A stretch of 64,000 bases of DNA. Source: Pseudoxanthomonas sangjuensis (GTDB lineage Bacteria > Pseudomonadota > Gammaproteobacteria > Xanthomonadales > Xanthomonadaceae). Shown piece by piece: positions 1,733 through 49,584 of the stretch. The translations under genes were made by a program, and so were the position numbers. The stretch is taken from the NCBI RefSeq assembly GCF_010211755.1, contig NZ_PDWR01000001.1:62001-126000 (forward strand), in the 5' to 3' direction. The notes beneath the pieces were generated by a model that was not told where the DNA came from, did not search any database, and saw only the letters and a program-made list of their open reading frames with translations. How positions within the stretch are numbered: position 1 is the stretch's first letter; each line of letters opens with the position of its first letter.

Positions 1733-1755
1733 GCTTGCGCAACTGTTGCGCAAGC
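1733..1755. promoter_or_regulatory. Perfect 23-bp inverted repeat before the asnB leader (candidate operator and promoter region)
   Basis: Arms GCTTGCGCAAC and GTTGCGCAAGC flank a single central T. Read another way, the palindromic octamer TTGCGCAA occurs twice (1735-1742 and 1746-1753) with an 11-nt period, one helical turn. It lies between the dapE stop and the leader-peptide start. A weak promoter can be drawn with TTGCGC at 1736-1741 and GATCAT at 1760-1765 (18-bp spacer), which would place the repeat over the -35 region. That suggests a regulator site. As RNA it could also form a 10-bp hairpin, but no U-run follows, so it is not a typical terminator. Confidence 0.5.
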
Positions 1756-1782
1756 CCACGATCATCGGTTAGCGTTGGCCGC

Positions 1783-1875
1783 ATGAAGTCCTTCGCCGCC
1801 AACGTCGCGAATCCGAATAACCGCAACAACCTGCGTGCGAACGATCGTGCGCGGCCGGTGCGGGGCCGCGACTAG
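1783..1875 (+). CDS. asnB leader peptide, asparagine-rich (30 aa)
   Basis: A 30-codon ORF from ATG 1783 to TAG 1873-1875. Seven of its 30 residues are asparagine, at positions 7, 10, 12, 13, 15, 16 and 20, including two adjacent NN pairs in the core NVANPNNRNNLRAN. It lies directly upstream of the asparagine synthetase gene and is followed by an intrinsic terminator, exactly as in amino-acid attenuators such as those of his or trp. Its inferred role is to sense charged tRNA-Asn by ribosome stalling. No strong Shine-Dalgarno is visible, and a start near the proposed transcript 5' end is possible. The peptide itself probably has no other function. Confidence 0.8.
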   Translation: MKSFAANVANPNNRNNLRANDRARPVRGRD

Positions 1876-1913
1876 GCCAAGGGCAACCAGCCGAACAACC
1901 GAAACCCGCATCG
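1850..1913 (+). promoter_or_regulatory. Attenuator: alternative pause hairpin and antiterminator
   Basis: Two mutually exclusive structures can be drawn. Hairpin 1:2 pairs 1850-1856 (CGCGGCC) with 1864-1870 (GGCCGCG), 7 bp with a 7-nt loop. The antiterminator pairs 1856-1864 (CGGTGCGGG) with 1905-1913 (CCCGCATCG), 9 bp with one G-U, and so consumes the 5' arm of the terminator at 1903. A ribosome stalled at Asn codon 20 (1840-1842) would cover the left arm of hairpin 1:2 and free the antiterminator strand. A ribosome reaching the stop codon would cover that strand and let the terminator form. The pairings are read directly; the mechanism is inferred from known attenuators. Confidence 0.75.
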
Positions 1914-1930
1914 CAAGATGCGGGTTTTTT
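1903..1930 (+). terminator. Intrinsic terminator of the asnB attenuator
   Basis: Perfect 10-bp stem AACCCGCATC / GATGCGGGTT with loop GCAA, followed at once by a T-run (1925-1930). It stands 38 nt before the asnB ATG, so it would stop asnB transcription unless prevented. Its 5' arm can instead pair with leader positions 1856-1864. Confidence 0.88.
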
Positions 1931-1968
1931 CGTTTCCAGCCATCCCAATCCAACTTCGGGGAATTCCC

Positions 1969-3696
1969 ATGTGTTCGATCTTCGGCATCTTCGGCCTGCA
2001 ACCGGGCGACGACCTGCAATTGCTGCGACGGCAGTCGCTGGAACTCTCGCAACGCCAGCGCCACCGCGGCCCCGACTGGAGCGGCGTCTACCTCGACGGC
2101 GGCGGCGCTTCCGAAGGGTGCATCCTCGTCCACGAGCGCCTCGCCATCGTCGATCCGGCCGGCGGTTCGCAGCCCTTGCTGTCCGAGGACGGCGAACTGG
2201 CGCTCGCGGTCAACGGCGAAATCTACAACCATCGCGAACTGAAGGCCGGGCTGATGCGGCCCTACGCCTTCCAGACCGGTTCCGATTGCGAAGTGATCAA
2301 CGCGCTATATCGGGAAGGCGATGGCCGCGAGGACGAGCCGGCTTCGTTCCTCAACCGTCTCAACGGCATCTTCGCCTTCGCGCTGTGGGACAAGGCGAAG
2401 GGCGGGGCGATCATCGCCCGCGATCCCATCGGCGTCTGCCCGCTGTACTGGGGCCACGACCGCCAGGGCCGGTTGCGCGTGGCATCGGAGATGAAGTCGC
2501 TGGCCGACACCTGCGCCGACGTCGCGCAGTTCCCGCCGGGGCACTGGTACGACACCGCCACCGGCGAGTTGAAGCGGTACTACGAACGCCCATGGCGCAG
2601 CTACGAGGCGGTTGAAGGCGTCGAGGTCCCGCTGCAGGAATTGCGCGAGGCCTTCGAGGCCGCGGTGCACCGCCAGCTGATGACCGACGTGCCCTACGGC
2701 GTGCTGCTCTCGGGCGGCCTGGATTCTTCGCTGGTCGCCGCCGTCGCCGCGCGTTATGCGCGGCATCGCGTCGAGGACAACGACAGGAGCGAGGCCTGGT
2801 GGCCGCGCCTGCATTCGTTCGCGATCGGCCTGAAGGGGTCGCCCGACCTCGCCGCGGCGAAGATCGCCGCCGAGGCGCTGGGTACCGTGCACCACGGCTT
2901 CGAATACACCTTCGACGAAGGCCTGGACGCGCTGCCGGAGGTGATCCGCCACATCGAGACCTACGACGTCACCACGATCCGCGCTTCGACGCCGATGTTC
3001 CTGCTGGCGCGGCGGATCAAGGCGATGGGCGTGAAGATGGTGCTGTCGGGCGAAGGCAGCGACGAAGTGTTCGGCGGCTACCTGTACTTCCACAAGGCGC
3101 CGAATGCGCGCGAATTCCACGAGGAACTGATCCGCAAGCTCGATGCGCTGTACCACTACGACTGCCTGCGCGCCAACAAGTCGATGATGGCCTGGGGCGT
3201 GGAGCCGCGCGTGCCGTTCCTGGACCGCGAGTTCCTGGACGTGGCGATGCGCATGGACGCGAAGTTCAAGATGGTCGACAAGTCGCGTAGCGACGCGCAG
3301 CGGATGGAGAAGGGCGTGCTGCGTGCGGCGTTCGACGGCTACCTGCCGCATTCGATCCTGTGGCGGCAGAAGGAGCAGTTCAGCGACGGCGTCGGCTACG
3401 GCTGGATCGACGGGCTGAAGGCGCACGCCGAGCGGCAGGTCAGCGACCGCGAACTGGCCGCGGCCGACAAGTGCTTCCCGGTCAACCCGCCGCAGACCAA
3501 GGAGGCGTACTGGTACCGCAGCCTGTTCGAGCAGTTCTATCCGTCGCCGGCCGCGGCGGAGACAGTGCCGGGCGGCAAGTCGATCGCGTGTTCGTCGCCG
3601 GCGGCGATCGCCTGGGACGCCAGCTTCGCGAAGATGGCCGATCCGTCGGGCCGCGCGGTCGCGGGCGTGCACAACGACGCGATGGCCGTGGTCTGA
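1969..3696 (+). CDS. asnB: Asparagine synthetase B, glutamine-hydrolysing
   Basis: A 575-residue cytoplasmic enzyme making asparagine from aspartate, glutamine and ATP. The start MCSIFGIFG places the catalytic cysteine at position 2, ready to become the N-terminal nucleophile of the class II amidotransferase domain (roughly residues 1-200). The synthetase domain follows with the PPi-loop SGGLDSSLVAA and the later GEGSDEVFGGY motif. A more upstream in-frame ATG at 1918 lies inside the terminator hairpin and is rejected. Length is close to E. coli AsnB (554). Expression is probably controlled by the asparagine attenuator upstream. It converges on the next gene across a hairpin at 3698. Confidence 0.96.
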   Translation: MCSIFGIFGLQPGDDLQLLRRQSLELSQRQRHRGPDWSGVYLDGGGASEGCILVHERLAIVDPAGGSQPLLSEDGELALAVNGEIYNHRELKAGLMRPYAFQTGSDCEVINALYREGDGREDEPASFLNRLNGIFAFALWDKAKGGAIIARDPIGVCPLYWGHDRQGRLRVASEMKSLADTCADVAQFPPGHWYDTATGELKRYYERPWRSYEAVEGVEVPLQELREAFEAAVHRQLMTDVPYGVLLSGGLDSSLVAAVAARYARHRVEDNDRSEAWWPRLHSFAIGLKGSPDLAAAKIAAEALGTVHHGFEYTFDEGLDALPEVIRHIETYDVTTIRASTPMFLLARRIKAMGVKMVLSGEGSDEVFGGYLYFHKAPNAREFHEELIRKLDALYHYDCLRANKSMMAWGVEPRVPFLDREFLDVAMRMDAKFKMVDKSRSDAQRMEKGVLRAAFDGYLPHSILWRQKEQFSDGVGYGWIDGLKAHAERQVSDRELAAADKCFPVNPPQTKEAYWYRSLFEQFYPSPAAAETVPGGKSIACSSPAAIAWDASFAKMADPSGRAVAGVHNDAMAVV

Positions 3697-14791: not shown

Positions 14792-14876
<85 letters not shown>

Positions 14877-40484: not shown

Positions 40485-41919
<1,435 letters not shown>

Positions 41920-41968
41920 TCCTCCGGAGCCAAAAGCGCGCGGCCGCAAGCCGCATCCGTGCAAAAAG

Positions 41969-41995
41969 AAAACCCGCCGGGAGGCGGGTTTTCGT
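41969..41995. terminator. Bidirectional terminator between obgE and rpsT
   Basis: AAAACCCGCC, loop GGGA, GGCGGGTTTT: perfect 10-bp stem with A and T runs on both sides, between convergent genes. Confidence 0.88.
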
Positions 41996-42017
41996 GTCTT
42001 CCGTCCGATGCCGCTGC

Positions 42018-42290
42018 TCAGGCGGCGGTCTGCAGCGCCTTGATGCGCGCGGTCAGGCGGCTCTTGTGGCGGGCGGCCTTGTTCTTGTGGATCAGGCCAC
42101 GGGCGCTGAAACGGTCGAGGATCGGCTGGGCGACGGCGAAGGCTTCCTGCGCGCCCTTGGCGTCGTTGGCGTCGAGCGCCTTCAGGACCTTCTTGACGGC
42201 GGTGCGAAGCTGCGAACGCTGGGCGTTGTTGCGCGCATTGCGCACGACGGTCTGCTTGGCGCGCTTCTTGGCGGACTTGATATTGGCCAC
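42018..42290 (-). CDS. rpsT: 30S ribosomal protein S20
   Basis: A 90-residue helical primary-binding 16S rRNA protein: [21 protein letters not shown] near the N-terminus and a KKVLKALD helix. The start codon is GTG (minus strand, 42290-42288), with CAGGAAT upstream. E. coli rpsT uses UUG and represses its own translation, so a weak start may serve the same purpose here. A clear promoter is at 42374. Confidence 0.97.
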
Positions 42291-49508: not shown

Positions 49509-49584
49509 GCCGGAATAGCTCAGTTGGTAGAGCGGCGCATTCGTAATGCGTAGGTCGTAGGTTCGAATCCTATTTCCGGCACCA
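49509..49584 (+). tRNA. tRNA-Thr (anticodon CGT)
   Basis: A 76-nt tRNA with encoded CCA. Acceptor GCCGGAA pairs with TTCCGGC; the anticodon arm GCGCA/TGCGT holds loop TTCGTAA, anticodon CGT, reading ACG. The T-arm contains GTTCGAATC. It closely resembles E. coli thrW. Confidence 0.97.

Follow-up and report, generated by a model that had tools for sequence, protein, structure and literature searches.

The window analysed here is a stretch of 64,000 nucleotides from Pseudoxanthomonas sangjuensis, whose genome (G000 in our set) is 3.29 Mb in size, and coordinates without a prefix are window positions. The gene asnB lies near its beginning, and the product of this gene scored 853 bits against the NCBIfam model NF006949, named asparagine synthase B (cut-off 499). 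Upstream of asnB an earlier note had described a leader of 30 codons with seven Asn codons, and direct reading of the sequence agreed with this. The Asn codons start at positions 1801, 1810, 1816, 1819, 1825, 1828 and 1840, and the stop codon occupies positions 1873-1875. The distance from the terminator to asnB had been given correctly as well, with 38 nt between the end of the T-run at 1930 and the asnB ATG at 1969. When ORFs of 20-45 codons were listed for both strands of the window, the leader was the only one of 390 with more than four Asn codons; four others contain four, and among these five it is the leader alone that has a T-run terminator on its 3' side. At the Asn rate found in asnB genes, the binomial probability of at least seven Asn in 30 codons is 2.9e-7. 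In addition, asnS was detected above cut-off in this genome and no match to asnA was found there. This implies that the asparagine for charging the tRNA proposed to be sensed comes from AsnB.

Table 1. Features of the asnB upstream region in the window and of the ilvC leader in the same genome.
Feature	Position	Strand	Basis or remark
Palindrome, perfect, 10-bp arms and 3-nt centre, over the -35 element	1733..1755	.	GCTTGCGCAACTGTTGCGCAAGC; possible operator, putative function
Putative -35 element TTGCGC	1746..1751	+	conserved TTGC
Putative -10 element TAGCGT, 18-nt spacer, 7 nt before the leader ATG	1770..1775	+	conserved hexamer
Leader peptide ORF, 30 codons, 7 Asn, probably leaderless	1783..1875	+	direct reading, translation MKSFAANVANPNNRNNLRANDRARPVRGRD
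Last Asn codon of the leader	1840..1842	+	predicted edge of a stalled ribosome ~1852, just 5' of strand 2
Possible 1:2 (pause) hairpin, 7 bp	1850..1870	+	foldable here; register not kept elsewhere
Strand 2, 5' strand of the antiterminator, within the tail of the leader ORF	1856..1865	+	own-versus-foreign duplex energies, covariation
Intrinsic terminator, strands 3 and 4, GCAA loop, T-run	1901..1930	+	sequence reading, alignment covariation
Strand 3, pairs with strand 2 (antiterminator) or strand 4 (terminator)	1904..1913	+	duplex energies, covariation of both helices
asnB, glutamine-hydrolysing asparagine synthase B, gene proposed to be regulated	1969..3696	+	NCBIfam NF006949
ilvC leader attenuator	G000:C74:39601-39702 (L265 = G000:C74:37800-40300)		leader MLQRHTPLANVPTAAEAASLALVLVLITKPTGAGRTGA; ketol-acid reductoisomerase downstream

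The tail of the leader ORF can pair with the 5' arm of the terminator. All nine pairs of the proposed antiterminator (1856-1864 with 1905-1913) are present, one of them a G-U pair (1858-1911). The intrinsic terminator with its T-run pairs over 10 bp as had been claimed (1903-1912 with 1917-1926) and can be extended to 12 pairs (1901-1912 with 1917-1928). The two helices exclude one another, again as proposed, since both need the same 5' arm of the terminator.

The occurrence of this arrangement was assessed in the regions upstream of asnB at the best 80 loci of named genomes among the matches listed, together with genomes of the order. In 125 of these loci (the window, L004-L043, L048 and L084-L166, several of them representing the same species twice) the AsnB protein is at least 72% identical to that of the window. 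A scripted rule required at least three Asn among the last 30 codons of the best frame and, 19-36 nt beyond the stop codon, a T-run terminator; it picked out 118 of the 125 loci (3-9 Asn per leader; three in 6 loci, four in 9 and five to nine in 103). Four more Asn-rich leaders were recognised by eye: in L137 and L138 the leader and the terminator lie further upstream of asnB, and in L025 and L026 the leader and the hairpin are present and the T-run is weak. Thus, the comparison that had been proposed beforehand revealed an Asn-rich leader in 122 of 125 orthologous loci. No leader was found upstream of asnB in the other three (L018, L029 and L042). These loci are labelled Holophagales, Rhodococcus and Deltaproteobacteria, with AsnB proteins 72-80% identical to that of the window, and their asnB genes may reflect transfer or misassignment. 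The rule also selected L071, where AsnB is 67% identical, and the 118 loci together with L071 formed the test set of 119 loci with 107 distinct sequences.

When AsnB was more distant, the same rule selected only 1 of 89 loci. It selected none of the 37 named loci (L044-L083 without L048, L066 and L071), of which 11 reached three Asn alone, their regions being A+T-richer (41% G+C versus 64%). The single locus selected, L178, was found among 52 loci with AsnB 59-68% identical, from the order plus two from other orders (L167-L201, L206, L207 and L212-L226, with L174, L175 and L186 lacking a well-placed asnB start). Outside the order, when 369 genomes of the class were searched at E 1e-150, AsnB relatives turned up only in L206 and L207, and neither was selected by the rule. 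In L178 a leader (MFAIYNTINTTNNRLLRSAGSF) and a strong terminator lie upstream of asnB, on the minus strand of the locus; the family of this bacterium belongs to the order, and its other examined loci are without such a leader. A leader with a GTG start (VKATDRRPALIRNLTNANRNPVSRRRRESRRALV) and a 13-bp terminator with a T-run also precede asnB in L066 (positions 1799-1958 of that locus), a MAG labelled Rubrivirga, which was kept out of the control of distant loci because it shows a leader and a terminator. This leader is possibly a separate Asn attenuator.

The ends of the leader peptides differ between the clades: ...RARPMRVCD in Xanthomonas, ...RARPMRDCD in Stenotrophomonas, ...NNASLPRAGD in several Lysobacter, ...NANRWRARA in Rhodanobacter and ...RIDGWAGV in Dyella. 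Each divergent tail still pairs with the terminator arm that follows it. In the 107 distinct sequences the duplex of the tail with its own strand 3 had a mean energy of -17.8 kcal/mol, compared with -10.5 kcal/mol for shuffled tails. Duplexes with foreign terminators averaged -15.2 kcal/mol (sd 0.25), and the best of 2000 permutations, which ignore relatedness, reached -16.1 kcal/mol; on average 21% of the foreign arms bind a tail better than its own arm does.

Covariation was evaluated by five measures on a MAFFT alignment (A1) of 37 sequences, namely the window and 36 of 41 named loci (L018, L025, L026, L029 and L042 were left out). The antiterminator was paired in 86.4% of cells versus 31.0-43.7% when the helix was slid, and its covariation was 0.159 versus 0.082, a value reached by 0 of 500 shuffles. 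For the terminator, 92.3% of cells were paired versus 21.7-53.4% when slid, and the covariation of 0.297 versus 0.164 was likewise reached by 0 of 500 shuffles. Nor did any of the 500 shuffles match either helix in its count of cells with changes on both sides. Two of the five measures were not exceptional: the pairs changed on both sides were matched in 28 of 500 shuffles for the antiterminator and in 43 for the terminator, and further pair types in 198 and 131, respectively. Among 108 informative sequences, one antiterminator column contains T-A in 47, G-C in 25 and C-G in 8 sequences, and another contains G-C in 105 and A-T in 3, these counts leaning towards pairing because the duplexes were chosen by minimum energy. 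An exchange of G-C for A-U in both strands of the antiterminator was seen in L032, L139 and L137, and by reading also in L138. Strands 2 and 3 have changed together in L032 and L139, whose terminators retain a G-U pair, and the change extends to all three strands in L137 and L138. Compensatory changes in the stems of relatives, which the earlier note had named as the supporting evidence to look for, were thus observed as covariation of both the antiterminator and the terminator in the 37 sequences.

The conservation of an ORF and a terminator would also be expected if the product of the ORF were a functional small protein rich in Asn and the terminator were constitutive, simply lowering asnB expression. 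However, the tail peptides vary by clade (RPMRVCD, SLPRAGD, NRWRARA, DGWAGV) with the complementarity to their own terminators kept, and the number and spacing of the Asn codons vary as well, which makes a small protein a highly improbable explanation.

The third hairpin considered in the earlier note, a 7-bp pause hairpin at 1850-1870, forms in the window sequence, but its register was not conserved in the 37 sequences, where 49.0% of its cells were paired compared with a shuffled mean of 50.8%. When 103 leaders were folded (four of the 107 were dropped, being without a scorable core or codon), some hairpin involving strand 2 appeared in 59 of them, no better than in shuffles, and the leader tails folded no better than their shuffles (mean z -0.38).

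The leader is preceded by a putative promoter (Table 1). The succession of TTGC, 15-19 nt, a -10-like hexamer, 5-8 nt and an in-frame leader ATG was found in 99 of 107 distinct leaders, compared with 9 of 1311 single ATGs in the window, the one to six in-frame ATGs per leader raising its chance of a match somewhat. Under a stricter -10 rule, with TTG alone required, the match was seen in 78 of 107 leaders versus 13 of 1311 window ATGs. No Shine-Dalgarno sequence was seen in most leaders when these were read by eye; in 15 of the 78 leaders the -10-like hexamer is CAGGAT, and its AGGA could be a Shine-Dalgarno sequence instead. The position of the -10-like hexamer, ending 5-8 nt before the ATG in 99 of 107 leaders, suggests that the transcription start probably coincides with the leader ATG or lies a few bases from it and that the mRNA is probably leaderless.

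The earlier note had placed the start of the element at 1733, the first base of a palindrome. It is unlikely that the hairpin 1733-1755 belongs to the attenuator RNA, since it encloses the conserved -35 element, and 7 nt separate the end of the -10 element from the leader ATG. Thus, the DNA at 1733 is probably 5' of the transcript, and this boundary was given up. The palindrome is a possible repressor site. An AAC-N-GTTGC core was noticed by eye at the same place in many leaders of the Xanthomonas, Stenotrophomonas and Pseudoxanthomonas types and was not apparent in those of the Lysobacter and Rhodanobacter types. The palindrome core GCAACNGTTGC occurs at 6 genomic sites, all of them read on both strands, and the reversed control at 3.

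In the 78 leaders with the strict promoter match, Asn accounts for 479 of 2527 codons (AAC 254, AAU 225), and in the asnB genes of 36 named loci for 302 of 19,800 codons (AAC 253, AAU 49). The last 25 leader codons of the same 36 loci (L004-L043 and L048, five left out) contain 122 AAC and 106 AAU. AAU is therefore strongly over-used in the leaders relative to asnB itself (106/228 versus 49/302), and it is perhaps a slower or modification-sensitive codon. In 20 leaders of one type, aligned Asn positions carry both AAC and AAU. The presence of both codons and their exchange at aligned positions imply that the amino acid is kept, not one codon.

Ribosome arrest by a nascent peptide would require a constant peptide sequence, and the peptide around the Asn codons of these leaders is not constant among the clades. 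Moreover, the downstream gene makes the very amino acid whose codon is enriched. Hence it is very unlikely that a real leader attenuator is operated here by nascent-peptide arrest or an added signal instead of a shortage of charged tRNA-Asn, even though the over-use of AAU (AAC 122 and AAU 106 in the leaders versus AAC 253 and AAU 49 in asnB) would fit such a device and arrest leader peptides do exist, e.g. TnaC (PMC8429421).

A shortage of charged tRNA-Asn would act through the position of the last Asn codon, which had been judged earlier to be suited to freeing strand 2. In the window 12 nt separate this codon from strand 2, and the spacing is 9-13 nt in 84 of 107 distinct leaders, in line with that judgement; it is shorter than 7 nt in 14 leaders, Rhodanobacter-type ones among them, and 15-20 nt in 6. 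The stalled ribosome was represented in folding by masking the RNA to 10 nt past an Asn codon located at least 9 nt 5' of the strand-2 core, and the edge at about 1852 in the window follows from the ribosome footprint size. Under this mask the strand-2 core paired with strand 3 in 100 of 103 leaders, and with the ribosome placed at the stop codon the terminator arm was free and paired in all 103. When no ribosome was present and strand 4 had not yet been made, the antiterminator core still formed in 98 of 103. This suggests that termination may need translation, unlike in trp.

Based on these comparisons, the element is very probably a classical ribosome-mediated transcription attenuator, specific for asparagine and controlling asnB. 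The interpretation is supported by the conservation of the anatomy among relatives and by the covariation of both helices. The locus combines four features of the classical type, i.e., an Asn-enriched leader before an asparagine gene, a terminator, a covarying antiterminator and a codon placement compatible with stalling. From the sequences we infer a leaderless start, ribosome stalling and a response to asparagine, which would proceed as follows. Transcription would begin on the leader AUG or no more than a few bases away. If Asn-tRNA were scarce, the ribosome would halt in the Asn run and cover the RNA to about 10 nt past the last Asn codon, so that strand 2, left uncovered, could pair with strand 3. 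Strand 4 would then remain alone, no terminator would form, and the polymerase would read into asnB. If Asn-tRNA were plentiful, the ribosome would reach the stop codon and cover strand 2, so that strands 3 and 4 would form the terminator and transcription would end at about 1930.

The terminated RNA would be about 148 nt long and start at the start codon, which is the layout of rnTrpL, and besides its action in cis the leader RNA or the peptide might act in trans, like rnTrpL/peTrpL of Sinorhizobium. However, action in cis accounts for the conserved parts, and such an additional role seems unlikely. Attenuation in cis is also the core of a broader view that we put forward tentatively and hold to be rather doubtful as a whole: that this is the first Asn-specific ribosome-mediated attenuator, that it works on a leaderless mRNA with read-through as the default and termination needing a ribosome at the stop codon, and that the device has arisen or spread more than once, as leaders of the same plan precede asnB in L066 and L178.

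The 37 sequences were also used to build a model of the element (R1), with which 200 genomes of the order were scanned. The 63 best matches of R1, compared by eye, all lie directly upstream of asnB, many of the 200 genomes having given R1 its sequences or being near kin of those that did. Below these, weak matches are frequent: at E 0.01, 164 of the 200 genomes gave one, among them members of families that lack the leader. In the window, R1 also matched 40695-40796 and 41967-42065; these were rejected as ordinary terminators, the first after the L27 gene and the second after a gene which we take to be S20-like. The 64th match, in the P. sangjuensis genome itself, is a Val-Leu-Ile leader before ilvC. 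It follows the same plan as the asnB leader: its tail (GGTGCGGG) is complementary to the terminator arm (CCCGCACC), TTGACA and TTTAGTTT occur shortly before the ATG, and it is apparently leaderless. The two leaders differ in that the ilvC leader has branched-chain amino-acid codons instead of Asn codons. Thus, this genome uses the architecture for a classically attenuated pathway. Similar leaders were seen upstream of genes in L266-L269, L272 and L270, which we assume to be ilvC-like in L266-L269 and L272 and ilvD-like in L270.

No Asn leader was found before asnS, as the 651 bases examined there contain no ORF of 10-60 codons with at least three Asn. A search for further Asn leaders in the same genome with the pattern AAYAAYNNNAAYAAY gave three sites, and the other two were dismissed, being within longer open frames. 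At the element, no Rfam family matched at the gathering threshold, and 9 relatives gave 0 gathering matches. The best match below threshold was Leu_leader RF00512 at 1779-1931 (22.1 bits versus 50, E 0.018). The leader families of Rfam, RF00512 and Thr_leader RF00506 included, stayed below threshold, and there was no T-box among the Rfam hits. The window also contains tRNA-Leu(CAG) at 14792-14876 on the minus strand and tRNA-Thr(CGT) at 49509-49584 on the plus strand.

The kind of attenuator is known, and its asparagine specificity seems not to have been described as far as we could see. No asparagine attenuator was found in the open-access literature searched, and an earlier prediction in subscription surveys is possible; nor did this literature yield a description of such asnB control in Xanthomonas, Stenotrophomonas, Lysobacter, Rhodanobacter or Dyella. 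If the interpretation is true, asparagine has to be added to the few amino acids for which sensing by leader-peptide attenuation is known, and the control of asnB in these genera and their kin would be explained. Model R1 provides a defined RNA element for which mutational tests are direct, and with this leader one can ask how an attenuator is timed when translation initiation is leaderless.

Ribosome-mediated transcription attenuation governs the trp, his, leu, thr, ilv and phe operons. The asnB element shares with these a short leader with codons of the regulated amino acid, mutually exclusive antiterminator and terminator helices, and a biosynthetic gene downstream. It differs from them in its asparagine specificity, in being probably leaderless, in that no conserved 1:2 hairpin was found, and in an antiterminator that forms in silico even without a ribosome. 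In Firmicutes, asparagine genes are under T-box control, in which the leader RNA binds the tRNA directly, without a leader peptide; the likeness to the asnB element lies in the sensing of tRNA-Asn charging by the leader RNA, which is proposed for asnB. In trpL/rnTrpL of Sinorhizobium meliloti, the leader ATG is where the RNA starts, and termination occurs ahead of the structural gene (PMC7298713). The asnB leader resembles it in the RNA start at the leader ATG, which is predicted for asnB, and in termination before the structural gene, whereas rnTrpL is specific for Trp and has reported trans functions.
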